In this document: piece after piece, positions 2,810 to 16,382 of the stretch
Layout of the letters: each line of letters opens with the position of its first letter
Numbering within the stretch: position 1 is the first letter of the stretch
Assembly: GCA_902778055.1 (NCBI GenBank)
Contig: CACYWL010000012.1
Coordinates: forward strand, 1-64,000
Origin: an uncultured Eubacteriales bacterium
GTDB lineage: Bacteria > Bacillota > Clostridia > Christensenellales > Aristaeellaceae
Direction of reading: 5' to 3'
DNA: 64,000 nucleotides
Notes under the pieces: model-generated
What the model saw: the letters and a program-made list of their open reading frames with translations, nothing else
Databases searched by the model: none
What the model was told of the DNA's origin: nothing
Made by a program: the position numbers and the translations under genes

Positions 2810-3424
2810 ATGACCGGAAAAATCATTTCTCTGCTGCTGGCCGTGCTGATGCTGACGGGCGCCTTCGCCGCGGCGGGGGCGGAAACGGCCGGGGAGGGCC
2901 GGACCTGGTATGTCTACACCGAGAACGGGAAGCCGCTGAACGTCCGGATTCTGCCGGAGGGCGAGATCGTCGGAAAGATCGCCTGCGGAGAGCAGGTGCA
3001 GGTGGTTTCCGTTCAGAACGACACCTGGGCTGAGATTACCTTCCATTACAGCCATCCGGAAAACGGGGAAGGGGACTGGCCGGCCTACGTGAACCGCAGG
3101 TACCTGACGGACATCGAGCCCGGCGAGCTCCAGAAGCTGCAGGAGGCGGAAGCCGTCTTCTTCACGGGGGATCCCATGACGGACATCAACAAGGAATTCG
3201 CCAGCGCGCAGAGCGTCACGCCCTACGAGATCTCCATCCGCCCGGCCCGCGTGACCGGCGTCGTGAACATGCGCTGGATTCCCAGCGAGACCGGCGCCAT
3301 CATCGCCCAGTACAAGGCGACGGAGAAGCTGAACGTGCTGAAGGAGCTGACCTACTTCCTGATGGTGCAGGATCCCGACACGGGGGACGTGGGGTATATT
3401 CACCGGAGATACGCGGTGAAGTAA
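2810..3424 (+). CDS. Secreted protein with two SH3b-like domains
   Basis: 204 residues with a signal peptide (about 1-23, cleavage near AGA-ET). One bacterial SH3-like domain lies at about 30-100 (..GKPLNVRILPEGEIVGKI..). A second lies at about 140-204 (..GVVNMRWIPSETGAIIAQY..DVGYIHRRY). Such domains often bind peptidoglycan or stabilise exported proteins. No catalytic domain is present. It starts 61 bases after the BIG2 gene with RBS GAGGAGG. Its domain plan matches the protein at 6959-7549, so the two are probably paralogues. Confidence 0.75.
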   Translation: MTGKIISLLLAVLMLTGAFAAAGAETAGEGRTWYVYTENGKPLNVRILPEGEIVGKIACGEQVQVVSVQNDTWAEITFHYSHPENGEGDWPAYVNRRYLTDIEPGELQKLQEAEAVFFTGDPMTDINKEFASAQSVTPYEISIRPARVTGVVNMRWIPSETGAIIAQYKATEKLNVLKELTYFLMVQDPDTGDVGYIHRRYAVK

Positions 3425-3454
3425 GGCCGAAGGGACACGAGGAGGAGAAGCCAC

Positions 3455-4540
3455 ATGAAGAAGATCGCTGCAATGCTGCTGAGCCTGATCCTGCTTCTGG
3501 GATGCGCGGCCGGGACGGCGGAAGGCGCCGTGGAAAAGATTGTTTTCGGGACACTGCACGCCAACGGGGAGTTCACGCTGAAGGGCGTGCTGCCGGAGGG
3601 CTACAGGATTTACCCCTTTGAGCAGGACGACAGCGCCCTCATCTCCTTCATCCGGGCGGAGGACCCCGCGCGGCCGGAGATGATCCTGTCCATCGCCTGC
3701 GACGAGATCTACGCGGATGTCGCGCGGCTGAACGACCTGAGCGACGAGGAGCTGGCCGTGCTGGAGAAGACCTTCACGGACACCGATCCCTACGCGAACA
3801 TTACCTATGACGAAACCGCGCACGGGACGCGGCTGCTGATCTGCCGGACCGTCGCGGAGGCCTACGACTACATGGACATCCTGAGCATCTATCAGGGATA
3901 CATGATCGAGCTGATCATGCAGCCGGGAAAGGGCGCGGCAGAGCAGGCGCTGACGGAGGAACAGACGGCGGCCTGCATCAACCTGCTGTCCGAGCTGGAG
4001 TTCATCTCCGGCATCGAGGACGAGGAGCTGAAGCTGGCCGGGAACACCTTTGACGCCGAGATCACCGGATTCGACGCGGCGGGACGGACGCTGGACGTGA
4101 AGCTGCTCAAGCCCTTCCTGATGACGGAATGGGAGGTTGTCTCCCTCAGCGAGGGCGGCACCATCCGGATCGGCACCGAGGAGGTTCAGATTGACAAGCT
4201 GACCTACGAGGGGGATGACGCGGTGATCAACGACGTCTACCGGCTGGAGCGCCGGGAGGACGGCCTGTACACGGCCCGGGACTACGAGATGCCGGTCCTG
4301 ACGGAGGCCGCGGCGATGACCCTGAGCGTGCCGGAAGGGCTCGAATTCATCGAGGGCATCGAACCGGAATACGGCGAGATGCTGGACGAGCCGGTAACCC
4401 TGACGGCGGACGATCTGTTCGCAGCCCTCGAGGCGGCGGAGAACGGCGGCATCGGGTTCAACACCCAGAACGTGACCGTGACCTTCGGGGAGGATGGGAC
4501 GCTGGCCCAGGTCCGGCGCGAGTACACTCCCTGGCAGTAA
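3455..4540 (+). CDS. Exported protein of unknown function (lipoprotein-like)
   Basis: 361 residues with an N-terminal export signal. LLGC at about residues 14-17 could be a lipobox; the alternative is signal peptidase I cleavage after AEG. The first ~180 residues resemble the whole 185-residue protein at 7590-8147: a G..LPEGYRI-like strand, an acidic helix with SDEELAVLEKTF versus TPEDVEAVKESF, and an ending in LLSELEFI versus FLTDIEFA. They appear to be paralogues, this one with a ~180-residue C-terminal extension. The function is not recognised. It lies 30 bases after the SH3b gene and 30 before the DUF1538 gene. Confidence 0.7.
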   Translation: MKKIAAMLLSLILLLGCAAGTAEGAVEKIVFGTLHANGEFTLKGVLPEGYRIYPFEQDDSALISFIRAEDPARPEMILSIACDEIYADVARLNDLSDEELAVLEKTFTDTDPYANITYDETAHGTRLLICRTVAEAYDYMDILSIYQGYMIELIMQPGKGAAEQALTEEQTAACINLLSELEFISGIEDEELKLAGNTFDAEITGFDAAGRTLDVKLLKPFLMTEWEVVSLSEGGTIRIGTEEVQIDKLTYEGDDAVINDVYRLERREDGLYTARDYEMPVLTEAAAMTLSVPEGLEFIEGIEPEYGEMLDEPVTLTADDLFAALEAAENGGIGFNTQNVTVTFGEDGTLAQVRREYTPWQ

Positions 4541-4570: not shown

Positions 4571-6097
4571 ATGATACTGAAAGACAAACTGCTCGATAAA
4601 TTCCGGGAAGCACTGGCTGCAGTGCTTCCCATCGTTCTTCTCGTCATGGTGCTCAGCCTGAGCGTGGCGCCGATTCCCAGCGGCGTCATGCTCAGTTTTC
4701 TGATGGGCACGGTGATGCTGATTTTCGGAATGATGTTCTTCTCCGTCGGCGCGGAGGTGGCCATGCAGCCCATGGGCGAGCTGACCGGTGCCAGGGTGAC
4801 CAAAAGCCGGAACCTGACGCTGATCCTGACGCTGGGCTTCGTGATGGGCGTGCTGATCACCGTTTCCGAGCCGGACCTGCAGGTGCTGGCCGGGCAGGTT
4901 CAGGCGATCCCGAACCTGGTGCTGATCCTTTCGGTGGGGCTCGGCGTCGGCGCCTTCCTGGTGCTGGCGCTGGTGAGAATCCTGTACCGGATCTCCCTGC
5001 GGATCCTGCTGTTCGGATTCTACGCGCTGATCCTGCTGCTGACCTTCCTGACGCCGGAGAGCTTCCGGTCCATCGCCTTCGATTCGGGCGGCGTCACCAC
5101 CGGCCCGATGACGGTGCCCTTCATCATGTCCTTCGGCCTGGGCATCTGCGCCATCCGGAGCGACGCCAACGCGGCGGAGGATTCCTTCGGCCTGGTGGCG
5201 CTCTGCTCCGTGGGCCCGATCCTGGCCGTCATGGTGCTGGGGATGATCTTCCGGCCGGACGGGGCGTCCTACACCTCCATGACGCTGCAGAACGTGCAGG
5301 ACTCCGTTGAACTGGGGAGGGTTTTCCGCAACGGGCTGCCGGAGATGCTGCGGGAGATGCTGATGTCCATCCTGCCCATCACAGTCTTCTTCTTCGTCTT
5401 CAATTTCATCATGCTGAAGCTGAACCGGGAGACGCTGAGCCGGATCGGCCTGGGCATCCTGTACACCTACATCGGCCTGACCGTTTTCATGACGGGCGCC
5501 AACTACGGCTTCATGCCGGCCGGCGCGTATCTGGGCGAGATGCTGGGAGATCTGGACTACCGGTGGATCATCATTCCCGTCGGGATGCTGATCGGCTTCC
5601 TCGTCGTGCGGGCGGAACCGGCGGTCTACGTGCTGATGCGCCAGGTTGAGGAGCTGACGGACGGCGCCATCACCGGGCGCAGCCTGCAGATGAGCATGTG
5701 CTTCGGCGTGGGCGTCTCCGTCGGGCTGTCCATGCTGCGGGTGATGATCGGGCTGAACGTGCTGTGGATCATCGTGCCGGGATACATTCTGGCGCTGGGG
5801 ATGAGCTTCCTGTGCCCGAAGCTGTTCACGGCCATCGCCTTCGACTCGGGCGGCGTCGCCTCCGGGCCGATGACGGCGGCCTTCCTGCTGCCGATGACAA
5901 TGGGCTTCTGCACCGCCCTGGGCGGCGATCTGGCCCAGGATGCCTTCGGCGTCGTGGCGCTGGTCGCGATGACGCCGCTGATCACGATTCAGGGGCTGGG
6001 CATCCTCTACCGCATCCGGAAGGCGCACCGGAAGCAGGAGCGGACGGAAACCGACCTGTTTGCCGAACTGCCCAATGACGCGGTCATCGAGCTGTAA
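4571..6097 (+). CDS. DUF1538 integral membrane protein, internally duplicated
   Basis: 508 residues, strongly hydrophobic with about 12-14 membrane segments. The protein is two tandem homologous halves. Each carries the signature (I)AFDSGG(V)..GPMT: residues ~172-186 (IAFDSGGVTTGPMTV) and ~420-435 (IAFDSGGVASGPMTA). Each signature is followed by ED(S)FG or QDAFG..ALV. This is the DUF1538 family, whose substrate I do not know. The inverted or duplicated layout with a conserved DSGG..GP loop is what transporters typically show. The next gene, 11 bases downstream, encodes a PII-like signalling protein, so transport is probably gated by a nucleotide or energy signal (inference). Confidence 0.8.
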   Translation: MILKDKLLDKFREALAAVLPIVLLVMVLSLSVAPIPSGVMLSFLMGTVMLIFGMMFFSVGAEVAMQPMGELTGARVTKSRNLTLILTLGFVMGVLITVSEPDLQVLAGQVQAIPNLVLILSVGLGVGAFLVLALVRILYRISLRILLFGFYALILLLTFLTPESFRSIAFDSGGVTTGPMTVPFIMSFGLGICAIRSDANAAEDSFGLVALCSVGPILAVMVLGMIFRPDGASYTSMTLQNVQDSVELGRVFRNGLPEMLREMLMSILPITVFFFVFNFIMLKLNRETLSRIGLGILYTYIGLTVFMTGANYGFMPAGAYLGEMLGDLDYRWIIIPVGMLIGFLVVRAEPAVYVLMRQVEELTDGAITGRSLQMSMCFGVGVSVGLSMLRVMIGLNVLWIIVPGYILALGMSFLCPKLFTAIAFDSGGVASGPMTAAFLLPMTMGFCTALGGDLAQDAFGVVALVAMTPLITIQGLGILYRIRKAHRKQERTETDLFAELPNDAVIEL

Positions 6098-6108
6098 GGA
6101 GGGAGAAG

Positions 6109-6864
6109 ATGAACCAGTCAGAGCTGTATCTGATGATGACAATTACGGACAGGGAAAAAATGCAGGGATTTATCCGGCTGTTCAAGGATAAGGGGCTGGA
6201 GACGCATTTCCTGTCCATCGGCCACGGCACGGCGCAGGAAAGATATCTGCGGCTGCTGGCCCTGAACGAGACGGAAAAGATGGTCTGCCTGACGGTGGTT
6301 ACCGGGCGGAAATGGCTGGAGGTCAAGAAGGCCATGAACGTCCGGATGCGGATCGACATTCCCGGCGTGGGCATCGCCTGCGTGATGCCTCTGGCCTCCG
6401 TGGCCGGAAAGCGGGAGCTGCAGTTTCTGGCCGCGGGGCAGGATTTCAGAGTAGGGGAGGAACAGACCTTGAAGGGAACGGAGCAGGAGCTGCTGATCGT
6501 GATCGGCAAGCAGGGATACAGTGAACAGATCATGGACGCGGCCCGGAAGGCGGGTGCGGGCGGAGGCACCGTGATCCACGCGCGGGGCACCGGTCAGGAG
6601 AAGGCGGAGCAGTTTCTGGGCATCTCCCTGGCCAGCGAGAAGGATATCATCCTGATTGTCGCCCCGACGGAAAAGAAGAAGGAAATGATGCAGGCGATCC
6701 TGCACGATGCCGGGCCCGAAACCCCGGCGGGCGCCATCGTGTTCTCCCTGCCGGTGACGGACACTGCCGGCATGACGCTTCGCCCGCAGACCGAGGAGCT
6801 CGAGGAGGAGGACCTGGCGGCCGGGGAAGGCAACACCCCCGCGGAGCCGTCCGCGAAATCCTGA
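6109..6864 (+). CDS. Tandem PII-like signalling protein
   Basis: 251 residues, apparently two PII/GlnB-like ferredoxin folds in one chain. The first is at about 5-112 (LYLMMTITDREKMQGFIRLF). The second is at about 125-230 and holds the more canonical PII strand-helix pattern YSEQIMDAARKAGAGGGTVI followed by HARGTG. The T-loop regions are short and there is no obvious uridylylation tyrosine. An acidic, probably disordered tail follows (LEEEDLAAGEG). PII proteins bind ATP/ADP and 2-oxoglutarate or other effectors and dock on transporters. Pairing with the DUF1538 gene 11 bases upstream (RBS AAGGAGGG) suggests it is that protein's regulator. Two PII domains in one chain is unlike the usual homotrimer. 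Confidence 0.75.
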   Translation: MNQSELYLMMTITDREKMQGFIRLFKDKGLETHFLSIGHGTAQERYLRLLALNETEKMVCLTVVTGRKWLEVKKAMNVRMRIDIPGVGIACVMPLASVAGKRELQFLAAGQDFRVGEEQTLKGTEQELLIVIGKQGYSEQIMDAARKAGAGGGTVIHARGTGQEKAEQFLGISLASEKDIILIVAPTEKKKEMMQAILHDAGPETPAGAIVFSLPVTDTAGMTLRPQTEELEEEDLAAGEGNTPAEPSAKS

Positions 6865-6930: not shown

Positions 6931-6958
6931 TCAGTAAAATTTGAAGGAGGTTTTATCC

Positions 6959-7549
6959 ATGAACAAACGGATTCTTTCTCTGCTTGCGGTTGTGGCGGTC
7001 CTGATGACCATGTTCGCCTTCACGACCTCCGCCTCCGCCATTTACATCCGGTATTCCGCCTGCGGCAACGGCAAGCCCCTGAACGTGCGCTCCGGCCCCG
7101 GCAAGAACTATGATGTCATCGGCTCCATCCCCTACGGCAACGAAGTTCCGATCGATCATGACTGCGGCAACGGCTGGTACGAGATCGTCTGGGGCAGCGT
7201 TCCCGGATTCGTGATGGGCAGCCTGACCAGCCGCAGCTATCCCGGCCCCTATGTCGCCCCCGAGAAGAAGGATCCCCAAAAGCAGGAGACCACCTCTGAT
7301 CCGGGCTACAACGATGTGTTCTCCAAGGCGAAGCTGGTTGCCCCCTATGCCGTGACCCTGAAGGCCACCAAGAACAGCAAGGGCGTGGCCAATGTCCGCT
7401 GGGCGCCCAGCAAGGCGGCGACCCTGCTGAAGGCCTATCCCGACGGAACCCAGGTTCAGGTCATTGCCGAGCTGGACAAATGGTATCAGGTCTCTGATCC
7501 CTCCAGCGGAGCCGTCGGTTTCGTGAACACGGCCTATGTCACGAAATAA
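6959..7549 (+). CDS. Secreted protein with two SH3b domains
   Basis: 196 residues. Signal peptide 1-26 (cleavage after SASA), then an SH3b domain at about 30-90 with the classical GKPLNVRSGPGKNYDVIG motif, a charged linker (EKKDPQKQE), and a second SH3b at about 130-196. The upstream TTG at 6941 lies inside the Shine-Dalgarno sequence and is not the start; ATG 6959 sits 8 bases after AAGGAGG. The strong promoter and short leader suggest high expression, consistent with an abundant wall-associated protein. It is probably cotranscribed with the next gene, 40 bases on. Confidence 0.8.
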   Translation: MNKRILSLLAVVAVLMTMFAFTTSASAIYIRYSACGNGKPLNVRSGPGKNYDVIGSIPYGNEVPIDHDCGNGWYEIVWGSVPGFVMGSLTSRSYPGPYVAPEKKDPQKQETTSDPGYNDVFSKAKLVAPYAVTLKATKNSKGVANVRWAPSKAATLLKAYPDGTQVQVIAELDKWYQVSDPSSGAVGFVNTAYVTK

Positions 7550-7589
7550 TCCAGTTTCCGATTGAAACAGTAAGAAGGAGGAAAACCAC

Positions 7590-8147
7590 ATGAAGAAGAT
7601 TATTGCGCTGGCGCTGAGCCTGATGATGCTGCTGGGCTGCGTATCTGCCCTGGCGGAAGCCGCGGAGAAGGACACCATCACCATGGTGGGCGCCTTCACC
7701 GTTACCTATGACAAGCTGCCTGCCGATTATGCCATGACCGTTGTGACGGACACCGAGATGGAATATGAAGCCATCTTCACCTCCGAAGACGCCAAGAAGC
7801 CCATGATCGACCTGCTCATGTGCTTCAGCGATGAGTGGAGCGGCGTGGAGACCTGGGCTGATGCGACCCCCGAAGATGTCGAAGCCGTGAAGGAGTCCTT
7901 CTACGAAGTGACTGAGATGGATGACGGCGACATCACCTTCGAGGACAGCACCACCGGCAAGGGCACCCCGATCCTGATCGCCAAGGGCGCCGACGGTTCC
8001 TTCGCCGCCGCGTACACCATCTTCAAGAGCCACGAGATCGAGCTGGACATCTTCCCCGGCGAGGAGCAGGAAGCCGTGACGGATGAGGATATCGCCCGCA
8101 TCGTCGCGTTCCTGACTGACATCGAATTCGCCCCCGTGGAGAAGTAA
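7590..8147 (+). CDS. Small exported acidic protein, paralogue of 3455-4540
   Basis: 185 residues. The N-terminal export signal MKKIIALALSLMMLLGC offers both a lipobox-like LLGC and a signal peptidase I site (ALA-E) a few residues later. The mature part is acidic, about 160 residues, alternating strands and helices, and ends in AFLTDIEFAPVEK. It resembles the N-terminal half of the protein encoded at 3455-4540. The function is unknown. RBS GAAGGAGG. It is the last gene of its transcript, as a terminator follows at 8168. Confidence 0.7.
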   Translation: MKKIIALALSLMMLLGCVSALAEAAEKDTITMVGAFTVTYDKLPADYAMTVVTDTEMEYEAIFTSEDAKKPMIDLLMCFSDEWSGVETWADATPEDVEAVKESFYEVTEMDDGDITFEDSTTGKGTPILIAKGADGSFAAAYTIFKSHEIELDIFPGEEQEAVTDEDIARIVAFLTDIEFAPVEK

Positions 8148-8167
8148 GATCCGATTTGTATTTTCCG

Positions 8168-8195
8168 AAAGGAGCCGAAAGGCTCCTTTCTTTAT
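8168..8195 (+). terminator. Rho-independent terminator
   Basis: A 9-bp perfect stem AAAGGAGCC / GGCTCCTTT with a GAAA tetraloop, followed by CTTTAT. It lies 20 bases after the stop of the gene at 7590. Confidence 0.85.
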
Positions 8196-8234
8196 ACCCG
8201 CAGAAAAAAGTTCGCCTGACACGGCAAAAAAATG

Positions 8235-8263
8235 TTGGATATTTTTCCGGAATCTGTTATGAT
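8235..8263 (+). promoter_or_regulatory. Promoter of the STAS operon
   Basis: TTGGAT (8235-8240), a 17-bp spacer and TATGAT (8258-8263), 65 bases before the STAS ATG. It is not a sigma-B-like promoter, so the partner-switch genes appear to be transcribed by the housekeeping sigma factor. Confidence 0.65.
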
Positions 8264-8328
8264 AAGCGCGTCAGGAACGGAAAAGTAATTTACGCCTGCA
8301 AGACTAAAAATCACAGGAGGAACGAATC

Positions 8329-8625
8329 ATGACGATTCAGAAGGTTCAGAATGGAAATGAGCTGACGGTCTGCCTGGAGGGCCGGCTGGACACGGTGACT
8401 TCTCCCGATCTGGAGAAGGAGCTGAAGGGCAGCCTGGACGGCGTTGAGAAGCTGACGATGGATTTCAGCAAGCTGGAGTACATCTCTTCCGCCGGACTGC
8501 GGGTGCTGCTGAGCACGCACAAGATCATGGCGGCCAAGGGCGGCATGAAGGTGACCCACGTGAACGAAATCGTCCGCGAGGTGTTCGATGTGACCGGCTT
8601 TGCCGATATTCTCGACATCGAGTAA
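8329..8625 (+). CDS. STAS-domain anti-anti-sigma factor-like protein
   Basis: 98 residues, a single STAS domain (SpoIIAA/RsbV size). Conserved elements are LEGRLDTVTSPDLE near the N-terminus and the phosphorylation-loop motif YISSAGLRVLL at about residues 47-57, whose serine is the usual kinase target. In partner switching, the unphosphorylated form binds an RsbW-type kinase. The downstream genes encode one degenerate and one fused RsbW-like domain, so this is probably their partner. RBS AGGAGG (8315-8320). Confidence 0.9.
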   Translation: MTIQKVQNGNELTVCLEGRLDTVTSPDLEKELKGSLDGVEKLTMDFSKLEYISSAGLRVLLSTHKIMAAKGGMKVTHVNEIVREVFDVTGFADILDIE

Positions 8626-8640
8626 GGGAGAAGCTGAAGG

Positions 8641-9228
8641 ATGAGAACAGATGTGATCACCGTTTCCTCCAATGGGAAGCAGATGAGCGCGGCGCTGGAG
8701 CAGGTCGAAAAGATGGCCGCCTTCAAGGGCCTTTCTTCCAAAGGCACGCTGCAGCTTCGCCTGCTGACCGAAGAGATGATGGGTATGATGCGCTCCATCA
8801 CCGGGGAAAAGGAAGGCCAGTTCTGGATCGAGGATGAGGACGGAGTCTATCAGCTGCACCTGCGGATGAACACGATCATGGATCCGGCGAAGCGCGAGCA
8901 GCTGCTCGGCGCCTCCACCTCCGGGAAGAACGAGGCCGCCAGGGGCCTGATGGGCCGGCTGCGGGATTTCTTTGAACAGGGAGACAATCTCGGCGCGCTG
9001 CCCTACTTCATGTCCGAGGCGGATGACCCGACCGCGGCCACCATGCGCTGGGAATGGTCCATGAATGCCTATCAGAACACGCTGCAGGGCTATATGGAGA
9101 AGGATCAGAGGGCCCGGGAAGCCTGGGACGAGCTGGAAAAATCCGTCGTGACGCATGTGGCCGATGAAATCAAGGTCTTCATTCGCGGCGGACAGACCGA
9201 AATGACGATTATCAAAAAGCTGGGATAA
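8641..9228 (+). CDS. Degenerate RsbW/HATPase-like protein next to STAS
   Basis: 195 residues. The early helix LQLRLLTEEMMGMMRS is laid out like the N-box helix of RsbW/SpoIIAB kinases (LxVxEExxNxxxH). However, the magnesium-binding asparagine and following histidine are missing. The middle (about 75-150) is an insert rather than clear G1/G2 ATP-lid motifs. The C-terminal strand IKVFIRGGQTEMTIIKKL fits the last strand of the fold. It is probably a catalytically dead or strongly diverged GHKL protein that could still bind the STAS partner. It lies 15 bases after the STAS gene, in the same operon. The assignment rests on position and a weak pattern. Confidence 0.55.
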   Translation: MRTDVITVSSNGKQMSAALEQVEKMAAFKGLSSKGTLQLRLLTEEMMGMMRSITGEKEGQFWIEDEDGVYQLHLRMNTIMDPAKREQLLGASTSGKNEAARGLMGRLRDFFEQGDNLGALPYFMSEADDPTAATMRWEWSMNAYQNTLQGYMEKDQRAREAWDELEKSVVTHVADEIKVFIRGGQTEMTIIKKLG

Positions 9229-9393
9229 GCACGGACGGCGGCGGAAAGGGCGGCACCATCCGGCACGGCGGCGGGGATTACCCGGCGCCGCGCCGGCATG
9301 AGGCTCCTTTCCCCGCTTTTTATATGCCGGCGGAAAGAACCGCAGCCGCGAAGGGCGGAGCGGGCCGGAAGGAAAAGGGAGACGGAAGGGAAA

Positions 9394-11139
9394 ATGATAC
9401 GCAAGCTGATCCGGCAGATGCTGGCCGCGCAGACGCTGTCCGCGCTGACCGTGTCGCTCTGCCTGCTGATTGACAACATCATGATCGGAAGGTTCCTCGG
9501 GGTCAACGCGATCGCGGCCTACGGGCTGGCCAACCCGATTCTGCTCGTGATCGGCGCCTTCGGGAGCATGCTGGCCGCGGGAGTTCAGGTGGCCTGCAGC
9601 AAATCCCTGGGCTGCGGATCCCAGGAGGAGACGAACCGGGGCTATTCCTCGGCGCTGGCGCTGGCCGCCGCGGTCTCGCTGCTGCTGACGGCAGGGGTGC
9701 TGATCTTCCGGAATCCGCTGGCGACCGCCATGGGAGCCGGAAGAGAGGGCGAGATCTATGACATGACCCGGGACTATCTGGCCGGGTTCATCATCGGCGC
9801 GCCGGGCTCCATGGGCGCGCTGGTGCTGGTGCCCTTCCTGCAGATGGCCGGGAAAAGCGGACTGCTGATCGCGGCGGTGCTGGGAATGACGGTGGCCGAC
9901 GTGGCGCTGGACCTGCTGAACGTGCTGGTCTTCCACGGCGGGATGTTCGGCATGGGCCTGGCGTCCTCCCTGAGCTATTACGTGGCGATGGTGATCGCGG
10001 CGTTCTACTTCCTCTCCGGGAAATGCGTCTTCCGCTTCTCCCGGGGATATGTCAGCCGGAAAAAGATCGCGGAGCTGATGACCGGCGGCGTTCCCACCGT
10101 GTTCACGATGGCGTCCTCCGTGGTGCTGGTGTTCATCCTGAACCGGATTCTGCTGGGCACGGGCGGGAGCGACGCGGTCGCGGCCTACTCCGTGCTGCTG
10201 ACGATCGGAAACGCCTCCAACTGCATCTCCACAGGCGTGGGCGGCGTCTCGCTGACGCTGTCCGGCATCTTCCACGGCGAGGAGGATGTCAGCGGACTGA
10301 AGGAGCTGCTGAAGCTGCTGAGCCGGTACGGCGTGCTGCTGGGCGCGGCGGTGGGGGCGATGCTGATCGCCTTCGCGCCGGTGCTGACGGGGATCTTCAT
10401 TCCCGAGGAGGGCGCCGCGAAGGAGCTGACGATTCAGGGGCTGCGGCTGTTCGCGCTGGGGCTGATCCCCTGCTGCATCAACAACGCGCTGAAGAACCTG
10501 TATCAGGGGACCGGGCGGGTCGCGCTGACGGAGGGCATCTCCGTGCTGGAGGGCGCGGTGTTTCCGGCCCTGGCGGCGCTGGTGCTCGGCCGCCTCTTCG
10601 GAGTCACCGGGGTCTGGCTGTATTTCCTGTGCGGAGAGGTGCTGGCGCTGCTGTTCACGGTGATGCTGGTGTGGAAAAAGAGCCAGGGCTTTCCCCGGGG
10701 AGCGAAGCCCTTCCTGCTGCTGCGGGAGGATTTCGGCGTCTGGGAGGGCAACCTGATGGAGGTCAGCATTCGCTCCATTGAGGAGGTGACGGGCGCCGCC
10801 GAGAAGGCGGAGGCCTTCTGCCGCGCCCACGGGCAGAGCGAAAAGACCGCCAACCACATCGCCCTGTGCGTCGAGGAAATGGCGAGCAACACCGTACAGC
10901 ACGGGTTCAGGAAGGACCGGGAGAATCACCTGTCCGTCCGGATCCAGAACCGGGAGAAACGGTGGACCCTGCGCTTCCGGGACGACTGCAGCGCCTTTGA
11001 CCCGGTCAGCTATGTGCCCCGGGGAGAGGAGGATGCCCTGGGCATCCGGCTGGTGATGGCAATGGCGGATGATATCCGCTACACCTATTCCCTGAACCTG
11101 AACAACCTGACGATCAAGCTGACAGATCAGCAAGTGTAA
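9394..11139 (+). CDS. MATE-family transporter fused to an RsbW-like ATPase domain
   Basis: 581 residues from ATG 9394; the more upstream ATG at 9298 would add a basic, non-hydrophobic leader and is unlikely. Residues ~1-440 form a 12-helix MATE (NorM-like) transporter. It opens with a helix containing LIDNIMIGRFLG, and the repeat ISTGVGGVSLTLSG lies in the second half. Residues ~455-581 are an RsbW/HATPase_c_2 domain. It has an intact N-box (CVEEMASNTVQHGF), a D..AFDP segment like the G1 box, and ALGIRLVMAMAD like the G2 box. A cytosolic anti-sigma-type kinase welded to a drug/Na+ antiporter-like carrier implies that transport and STAS phosphorylation are coupled. It is third in the STAS operon, after a 165-base gap. 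Confidence 0.8.
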   Translation: MIRKLIRQMLAAQTLSALTVSLCLLIDNIMIGRFLGVNAIAAYGLANPILLVIGAFGSMLAAGVQVACSKSLGCGSQEETNRGYSSALALAAAVSLLLTAGVLIFRNPLATAMGAGREGEIYDMTRDYLAGFIIGAPGSMGALVLVPFLQMAGKSGLLIAAVLGMTVADVALDLLNVLVFHGGMFGMGLASSLSYYVAMVIAAFYFLSGKCVFRFSRGYVSRKKIAELMTGGVPTVFTMASSVVLVFILNRILLGTGGSDAVAAYSVLLTIGNASNCISTGVGGVSLTLSGIFHGEEDVSGLKELLKLLSRYGVLLGAAVGAMLIAFAPVLTGIFIPEEGAAKELTIQGLRLFALGLIPCCINNALKNLYQGTGRVALTEGISVLEGAVFPALAALVLGRLFGVTGVWLYFLCGEVLALLFTVMLVWKKSQGFPRGAKPFLLLREDFGVWEGNLMEVSIRSIEEVTGAAEKAEAFCRAHGQSEKTANHIALCVEEMASNTVQHGFRKDRENHLSVRIQNREKRWTLRFRDDCSAFDPVSYVPRGEEDALGIRLVMAMADDIRYTYSLNLNNLTIKLTDQQV

Positions 11140-11161
11140 ACGCGGATGGGGAGGAATCGGG

Positions 11162-13228
11162 ATGCGCTTTGAACAGCAGGGAAACAGGCTGATGATTCTG
11201 GAGGGAAACAGCCAGCTGTGGATCGACCCGTGGGGAGAGGACGGCGTGCGCGTCCGCATGAGCTGCGAGCCGGAGATGGACGGGCATGACTGGGCCCTGA
11301 CCGAGCCGGTGAAGGAAACCAGGCCGGAAATCCGCTTCGAGGAGGTGGACACGACGGATCCCTGGTACCGGGGGCCGGAATGGGCGAAATACCATCAGAC
11401 CGGGACCCGGATCACCTTCACCAACGGAAAGCTGACGGTCCGGGTGTCCCCCGAGGGCTGGCTGAGCTTCTGCAACCAGAAGGGCGAGCTGCTGACGGAG
11501 GAATACTGGCGGAACCGGAACCGGCTGAATCGCTTTGCCTCCTCCCTGCGCATCTCCGCCCGGAAGCTGAAGCCCATTCCCGGCACGTCGGACTATGCCC
11601 TGACGGCGCTGTTCGAGGCCTTCCCCGGAGAGAAGATCTTCGGCATGGGCCAGTATCAGGATCTGCGGCTGGACAAGAAGGGATCCGTGCTGGAGCTGTG
11701 CCACCGGAACTCTCAGGCCAGCGTTCCCTTCTACGTCAGCAGCCGGGGATACGGCTTCCTGTGGAACAACCCGGCCGTCGGGCAGGCTGTTTTCGGGGAG
11801 AACCGGACGGAATGGACGGCCCGGTCCACCCGGAAGATGGACTACTACATCACCTGCGGGGATACCCCGGCGGACATCGAGCGGAACTACTCCGCGGTGA
11901 CGGGCCGGACTCCCATGATGCCGGAATACGGCATGGGCTACTGGCAGTGCAAGCTGCGCTACCGGACCCAGGAGGAGCTGATGAAGGTGGCCAGGGAGCA
12001 CAAGCGGCGCGGGCTGCCGATGGACGCCATCGTGGTGGACTTCTTCCACTGGACCCGGCAGGGGGATTACAAATTCGAGCCGCTGGACTGGCCGGACCCG
12101 GACGCGATGGTGAAGGAGCTGCGGGAGATGGGGATCGAGACGGTCGTCTCCGTCTGGCCCACCGTGGACGAGAAGAGCGAGAACTACGGGACCATGGCGG
12201 ACCGGGGATACCTCGTCCGCACCGACCGGGGCAACGATGTTTCCACCTGGATGGGGGCGGCGGTCTACTTTGACGCCACCAACCCGGGAACCCAGAAATT
12301 CGTCTGGGAGAAATGCCGGGACAACTATTACCGGAAGGGCATCCGCTGCTTCTGGCTTGACGAGGCGGAGCCGGAATACGCCGACTACGAGTTCGACAAC
12401 TACCGCTACTGGGCCGGCCCCGCGCTGCAGTGCGCGAATGTCTACCCGGTGGGATACGCCAAAGGCTTCTACGAGGGCCTGCAGGCGGAGGGGGAGAAGG
12501 ACATCCTTTCCCTGGTCCGCTGCGCCTGGGCGGGAAGCCAGAAATACGCGGCGCTGACCTGGAGCGGGGACGTCTACTCCTCCTTCCGCTCCATGCGGGA
12601 GCAGCTGCAGGCCGGGCTTTCCATGGCCATGGCGGGGATTCCCTGGTGGACCTGCGACCTGGGCGGCTTCATCGGCGGGGACGGATCCGATCCGGCCTTC
12701 CGGGAGCTGCTGGTCCGCTGGTTCGCGTGGGGATGCTTCCTGCCGGTCTTCCGGATGCACGGGGAACGCTCCCCCTGGTACGAGCGGGAGCAGGAATACC
12801 GCAACGGCGTGCGCCAGCTGACCTCCGGGCAGGACAACGAGGTCTGGAGCTTCGGGGAGGAGAACACCCCGATCCTGAGCCGGTTCCTCTTCATCCGGGA
12901 GAAGCTGCGGCCCTATATCCGCGGACTGATGCAGGACGCCCACGAGACCGGCGCGCCGGTGATGCGGCCGCTGTACTACGATTTTCCGGCGGATCCGCAG
13001 GCCGCGGAGACGGAGGACTGCTACATGTTCGGGCCGAAGCTGCTGGTGGCCCCGGTGATGGAGGCCGGCGCGAAGGAAAGAACGATCTATCTGCCGAAGG
13101 GCGCCCGGTGGAAGGACGCCTATACCGGCCGGGAATACGAGGGAGGGCAGACCGTGACCGTGCCCGCCCCGCTGGAAATCATCCCGGTGATGATCCGGGA
13201 CGGCGCGGAAATCGACATTTACGGCTGA
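11162..13228 (+). CDS. GH31 family alpha-glycosidase (alpha-xylosidase/alpha-glucosidase)
   Basis: 688 residues without a signal peptide, so cytosolic. The order is an N-terminal beta-sandwich (~1-230), the (beta/alpha)8 barrel (~240-590) and C-terminal beta domains (~590-688). The GH31 signature WLDEAEPE holds the predicted nucleophile D400. The acid/base is predicted as D470 in LTWSGDVYSS. MMPEYGMGYWQCKLRY marks the barrel entry. The retaining mechanism would release alpha-linked xylose or glucose from non-reducing ends of imported oligosaccharides. The WLDEAEPE variant is more like alpha-xylosidase or sulfoquinovosidase-related clades than yeast maltase, but specificity cannot be read here. 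The ATG lies 22 bases after the MATE fusion gene, with GGGGAGGAA as RBS. Confidence 0.9.
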   Translation: MRFEQQGNRLMILEGNSQLWIDPWGEDGVRVRMSCEPEMDGHDWALTEPVKETRPEIRFEEVDTTDPWYRGPEWAKYHQTGTRITFTNGKLTVRVSPEGWLSFCNQKGELLTEEYWRNRNRLNRFASSLRISARKLKPIPGTSDYALTALFEAFPGEKIFGMGQYQDLRLDKKGSVLELCHRNSQASVPFYVSSRGYGFLWNNPAVGQAVFGENRTEWTARSTRKMDYYITCGDTPADIERNYSAVTGRTPMMPEYGMGYWQCKLRYRTQEELMKVAREHKRRGLPMDAIVVDFFHWTRQGDYKFEPLDWPDPDAMVKELREMGIETVVSVWPTVDEKSENYGTMADRGYLVRTDRGNDVSTWMGAAVYFDATNPGTQKFVWEKCRDNYYRKGIRCFWLDEAEPEYADYEFDNYRYWAGPALQCANVYPVGYAKGFYEGLQAEGEKDILSLVRCAWAGSQKYAALTWSGDVYSSFRSMREQLQAGLSMAMAGIPWWTCDLGGFIGGDGSDPAFRELLVRWFAWGCFLPVFRMHGERSPWYEREQEYRNGVRQLTSGQDNEVWSFGEENTPILSRFLFIREKLRPYIRGLMQDAHETGAPVMRPLYYDFPADPQAAETEDCYMFGPKLLVAPVMEAGAKERTIYLPKGARWKDAYTGREYEGGQTVTVPAPLEIIPVMIRDGAEIDIYG

Positions 13229-13319
13229 GCGGGAGCTCCCGGGGAAGCGGGCCTGACGGAAAAACGGGGCAGGCTTTCCGGGGAGAGTGAGCGACGATCA
13301 GAGGGGGAGGAAAGCACAG

Positions 13320-16382
<3,063 letters not shown>

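Follow-up and report, generated by a model that had tools for sequence, protein, structure and literature searches.

Organization of the locus

Within the window, i.e., the whole 64,000-nt stretch of DNA analyzed here, three consecutive genes on the forward strand encode a STAS-domain protein, a degenerate RsbW-like protein (P195), and a membrane carrier of the drug-efflux type (MATE) whose C terminus is an RsbW-like domain. The following features were distinguished:

8329–8625, + strand: STAS-domain protein of the anti-sigma-factor-antagonist type, 98 aa
8641–9228, + strand: P195, degenerate protein of predicted RsbW-type fold, 195 aa, without the N-box Asn
9239–9325, + strand: strong GC-rich hairpin with a 3′ U5 tract, located between the P195 and fusion genes (folding energy, z −4.9)
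9394–10746, + strand: fusion, residues 1–451: MATE carrier part (domain match, fold, invariant Asp27 and Asp173)
10747–11139, + strand: fusion, residues 452–581: RsbW-like HATPase_c_2 domain at the C terminus (domain match, invariant residues)

The same trio had been described in the initial annotation, and all of its members were recovered, the STAS protein and the fusion by domain matches and P195 by its predicted fold; the motifs CVEEMASNTVQHGF, ALGIRLVM, and YISSAGL listed there are all present in the sequence. The start of the fusion gene was assigned to position 9394 rather than 9298, because nearly all close relatives begin with MIRKL or a close variant of it, which gives a protein of 581 aa ending at 11139.

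The proposal that the three genes form one operon is uncertain for the window. The STAS and P195 genes are separated by 15 nt, whereas the fusion gene follows P195 after 165 nt, with the hairpin (−69.9 kcal/mol, no shuffled sequence being equally stable) and its U5 tract in between, which makes co-transcription of P195 and the fusion doubtful here. The hairpin is a probable terminator or attenuator; it was missed by a simple terminator scan, which requires an uninterrupted stem, and simple promoter and terminator scans were uninformative. In several relatives the distance between P195 and the fusion is 0–28 nt, so that co-transcription is likely there and uncertain in the window.

Two sets of neighboring genes were considered as further module members and rejected, since neither recurs beside the fusion in relatives: the downstream GH31 gene (11162–13228, 22-nt gap) and the upstream DUF1538/P-II genes. 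The latter (4571–6864) encode a DUF1538 protein with both halves present (UmpA/UmpB-like) and then a protein showing a weak P-II domain, and possibly constitute a P-II-regulated antiporter. The window also contains a duplicated gene pair (2810–4540 and 6941–8147) for a secreted protein with an SH3 domain and a small secreted protein without an assigned function; such a pair, with a second protein of 185 aa, recurs 5′ of the fusion or of the STAS gene in several relatives. A large clostripain-family (Peptidase_C11) protein with a long and repetitive N-terminal part is encoded at 13287–16382.

Domain composition of the encoded proteins

In its longer 613-aa reading frame, the fusion matches MatE with 92 bits and HATPase_c_2 with 50.7 bits, the latter at residues 495–605. 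The carrier part is assigned to the MATE family by two MatE repeats, a 12-helix fold similar to those of PfMATE and DinF-BH, and a conserved acidic residue in TM1. Both Asp27, which lies in TM1, and Asp173 are invariant. The TM1 Asp of DinF-BH, which reads Asn in the structure 5c6n, is the counterpart of Asp27 in the alignment; the carrier thus looks transport-competent, its residues being compatible with cation-coupled transport. The tail scores above the PF13581 cut-off and retains the intact ATP-site residues of an RsbW-type HATPase domain, with E494, E495, N499, D530, G550, and N570 invariant in 40/40 close relatives. In a sequence comparison with the PDB, only the kinase RsbW matched the tail significantly (E = 6e-4).

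The STAS protein matches PF01740 (E = 1.5e-13) and exceeds the cut-off of TIGR00377 (66 bits). Its Ser54, within YISSAGL, aligns with RsbV Ser56 and SpoIIAA Ser58, the phosphorylated serines of these proteins. This candidate phospho-acceptor is invariant among homologs, and the SSAGL motif is likewise invariant in 15 family members and in those distant fusion-adjacent STAS domains that were read; as judged from sequence, the protein thus has the conserved phospho-acceptor serine of a partner-switch antagonist. It is the only stand-alone STAS protein found in its genome.

No Pfam or NCBIfam match was obtained for P195. The best fold matches of its predicted model (pTM 0.76) are SpoIIAB, UsfX, SiaB, and RsbW, in agreement with its original description as a degenerate RsbW-like protein. 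The N-box retains its glutamates and has lost the Asn; given this loss and the RsbW-type fold of the model, we read P195 as a putative RsbW-fold pseudokinase.

Distribution of the fusion

Loss of the fusion in all relatives had been named at the outset as the sign of an assembly join. This did not occur: a close homolog of the fusion was found in 93/300 genomes of the family (the genome of the window included), about 90 of which encode it at full length, with 55–76% identity and no internal stops. Such conservation rules out an assembly join or a frameshift artifact. The named records of the fusion belong to uncultured Clostridia from rumen and gut. Beyond the family, divergent full-length fusions occur across the class and the phylum, and a profile built from diverse fusions detected them in about 20/391 class-wide genomes (E < 1e-93); matches to MATE-only proteins end near profile position 430–480 and are clearly apart from the full-length fusions.

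Partner genes beside the fusion

At least one partner gene (STAS, P195, RsbW, or PP2C) lies within 4 kb of the fusion at 21/80 family loci, where many contigs end early, and about three-quarters of these loci have no partner within this distance. The search of relatives proposed with the initial annotation showed that STAS, P195, and the fusion recur together, often with a PP2C phosphatase. The observed gene orders include PP2C–RsbW–STAS–P195–fusion (L083), STAS–P195–PP2C–fusion (L086), STAS–P195–RsbW–fusion (L091), and fusion–STAS–P195–RsbW (L116). The phosphatases of L083 and L086 are both dCache-HAMP-SpoIIE receptors, and in L109 and L140 the fusion is directly adjoined by a PP2C of a different type. 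Among the divergent fusions, eight have an abutting PP2C (L202, L203, L204, L213, L214, L218, L176, and L177), and the order STAS–fusion–PP2C is found in L177/L200.

A partner gene (PP2C, STAS, RsbW, or P195) is present within about 1.5 kb at 12 of the 24 divergent fusion loci (L202–L223, L176, and L177, with closely related species among them), compared with 0/12 MATE-only controls (Fisher p = 0.002, phylogeny ignored). An HD-domain protein beside the fusion in L206, taken for a PP2C from a phmmer match, was refuted by Pfam, and this locus counts as positive only through its STAS and P195 genes. Other genes beside divergent fusions encode a single protein that combines STAS, APH-type phosphotransferase, and HATPase_c_2 domains (L204, 3298–4755) and another that combines STAS and APH (L209, 218–1423).

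By co-occurrence, P195 is present in 88/93 fusion genomes and in 53/207 fusion-free genomes (odds ratio 51, phylogeny ignored) and lies within 3 kb of the fusion in 23/93 cases, against about 0.4 expected (phylogeny likewise ignored). Since STAS–P195 precedes the fusion in some relatives and follows it in others, the link survives rearrangement. The association is unlikely to stem from shared ancestry alone, given that linkage occurs in both orders as well as in distant families. The gene context thus gives good support to a partner-switch module attached to a transporter.

The same data bear on the possibility that transport is tuned, independently of STAS, by binding of ATP or another nucleotide to the tail. 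An intact ATP site would fit such tuning, as would the lack of a detected P195 in 5/93 fusion genomes; however, four of these five genomes are 64–82% complete and the fifth 88%, and the linkage with STAS, P195, and PP2C is recurrent, so we regard this explanation as highly improbable.

STAS adjoins P195 in 29/30 P195 loci. STAS–P195 pairs also occur without the fusion (L178, L187, L189, and L190), some of them beside an ABC exporter; tests of the neighbors in L178 and L190 identified an ABC ATPase together with an ABC-2 membrane protein. STAS–P195 is thus not dedicated to the fusion and may serve other transporters too. The occurrence of STAS in fusion-free neighborhoods, together with the persistence of degenerate tails in some fusions, would also fit a tail that only anchors or sequesters STAS (or P195) at the membrane while transport itself is unregulated. 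This is distinctly unlikely, as the transport residues of the MATE part are conserved as strictly as the tail in the subfamily of the window.

Partner-switch components in the genome of the window

The absence of a PP2C and of a sigma factor, as stated originally, is correct for the surroundings of the locus; for PP2C it does not extend to the genome (95% complete), which encodes three SpoIIE PP2Cs elsewhere. Counting that of the window, it has two MATE-HATPase fusions, and a single separate RsbW-like protein is also encoded. A PP2C is thus absent from the locus, present in the genome, and genetically linked to the fusion in relatives. No SigB/F/G-type sigma factor scored above the TIGR02980 cut-off in this genome, the best match being a 417-aa frame (136 vs. 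the cut-off of 234), and none was recognized among the neighborhoods inspected. The genome thus holds the parts of a partner switch but no classical target.

RsbW and SpoIIAB are the closest characterized relatives of the tail by sequence, and the tail might accordingly be a conventional membrane-bound anti-sigma factor, with STAS as its antagonist and the sigma factor encoded elsewhere. With no SigB/F/G-type factor above the cut-off in the genome and none recognized in the neighborhoods inspected, this is very unlikely.

The second fusion (C5:124189–125961) is divergent, with MatE and HATPase_c_2 domains and degenerate N- and G1-boxes, and is directly followed by a HAMP-SpoIIE phosphatase (L162, 7386–9167 and 9190–10962, − strand). 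On the same contig (L163, about 168–173 kb; 8040–9740, 9756–11630, and 11661–12962, − strand), a PP2C, a STAS-acyl-CoA-ligase-like fusion, and an HGSNAT_cat-like membrane acyltransferase are encoded in a row, the ligase part having been identified by reading the sequence; this is possibly another partner switch, with an enzyme as output.

Proposed mechanism

The RsbU/V/W system, in which partner switching is established, served as the model for STAS phosphorylation here. By analogy, a PP2C and an RsbW-type kinase should set the phosphorylation of STAS, and the unphosphorylated form should bind an RsbW-fold partner; since that partner is here a carrier, gating of transport is the simplest output. 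Many relatives encode the other components of the switch next to the carrier with the RsbW-like tail, and the switch would thus probably act directly on transport rather than on gene expression. We therefore favor, with a probability of about 0.5, a partner-switching module whose output is the MATE carrier and not a sigma factor, transport being gated by docking of STAS on the tail.

In this scheme, signals would flow from phosphatase and kinase through STAS to the carrier. A signal would set the phosphorylation of STAS Ser54, in several relatives via a dCache-HAMP-SpoIIE receptor phosphatase, and the opposing RsbW-type kinase could be the tail domain of the fusion, a separate RsbW, or both. 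Unphosphorylated STAS would then dock on the tail and turn transport on or off, while P195, as a relative without an ATP site, would be a second partner that competes for STAS or holds it.

The N-box Asn is no longer present in the own-genome paralog or in several distant fusions that nevertheless keep PP2C or STAS neighbors, which suggests that the tail is conserved for docking; in the subfamily of the window, kinase activity may be kept as well. This bears on the converse arrangement, also raised in the initial annotation, in which the MATE part is a sensor: transport or ligand binding would alter the activity of the tail kinase on STAS, which would then act on P195 or another partner. The invariance of the kinase residues in the close relatives goes beyond the needs of a pure docking domain, and an independent STAS–P195 pair could carry the output. 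However, the linked phosphatases bear usual sensor domains, so that input is already provided for, and retention of PP2C and STAS neighbors by fusions without the N-box Asn is better explained by docking than by a kinase output. The carrier-as-sensor explanation is thus unlikely, and STAS docking as a gate of transport remains our preferred reading.

Comparison with known systems

The known role of partner switches is mainly the control of sigma factors, although a few have non-transcriptional outputs; domains like that of the tail elsewhere turn stress and sporulation genes on and off. Like the Bacillus systems RsbU/RsbV/RsbW and SpoIIE/SpoIIAA/SpoIIAB, the module pairs a STAS protein that has the phospho-serine position with an RsbW-fold kinase domain bearing N-, G1-, and G2-boxes, and in relatives a PP2C is linked to it. 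It differs from them in that the RsbW domain forms the tail of a membrane carrier, a SigB/F/G-type target was not found, and an additional RsbW-fold protein without an ATP site (P195) is paired with STAS. SiaABC of Pseudomonas aeruginosa and SypA/SypE of Vibrio fischeri are partner switches with non-sigma outputs, and P195 has SiaB among its fold matches; these outputs are cyclase or biofilm control and not a transporter. The closest solved structures to the MATE part, DinF-BH and PfMATE, have the TM1 Asp in common with it but, unlike the fusion, lack a cytosolic RsbW-like domain. In MlaB/MlaF and SLC26/SulP a STAS domain acts on a transporter, as proposed here, although neither an RsbW-type kinase domain on the transporter nor a PP2C cycle is known in these systems. 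Their STAS domain is a subunit or a part of the transporter (PMC7367683, PMC8256260).

We found no description of a MATE-RsbW/HATPase_c_2 fusion, or of a partner switch acting on a MATE carrier, in the open-access literature searched; domain databases may show MatE-HATPase_c_2 architectures. What is new is therefore a variant of partner switching placed on a MATE carrier, for which the context evidence is strong and the mechanism itself is a proposal. We tentatively suggest that these fusions represent a class of secondary transporters set directly by a partner switch, where STAS, cycled by an RsbW-type kinase and a receptor PP2C, would dock on a kinase-like tail and let an extracellular signal gate transport without a change in transcription.

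In families across Clostridia, an RsbW-type domain is covalently joined to a secondary transporter and encoded beside the remaining parts of the switch. If docking of STAS gates the carrier, efflux would be under a direct phospho-switch that could operate in the absence of new transcription, and the fusion offers a ready means of testing how many STAS/PP2C sets that lack a sigma factor have membrane proteins as their targets.
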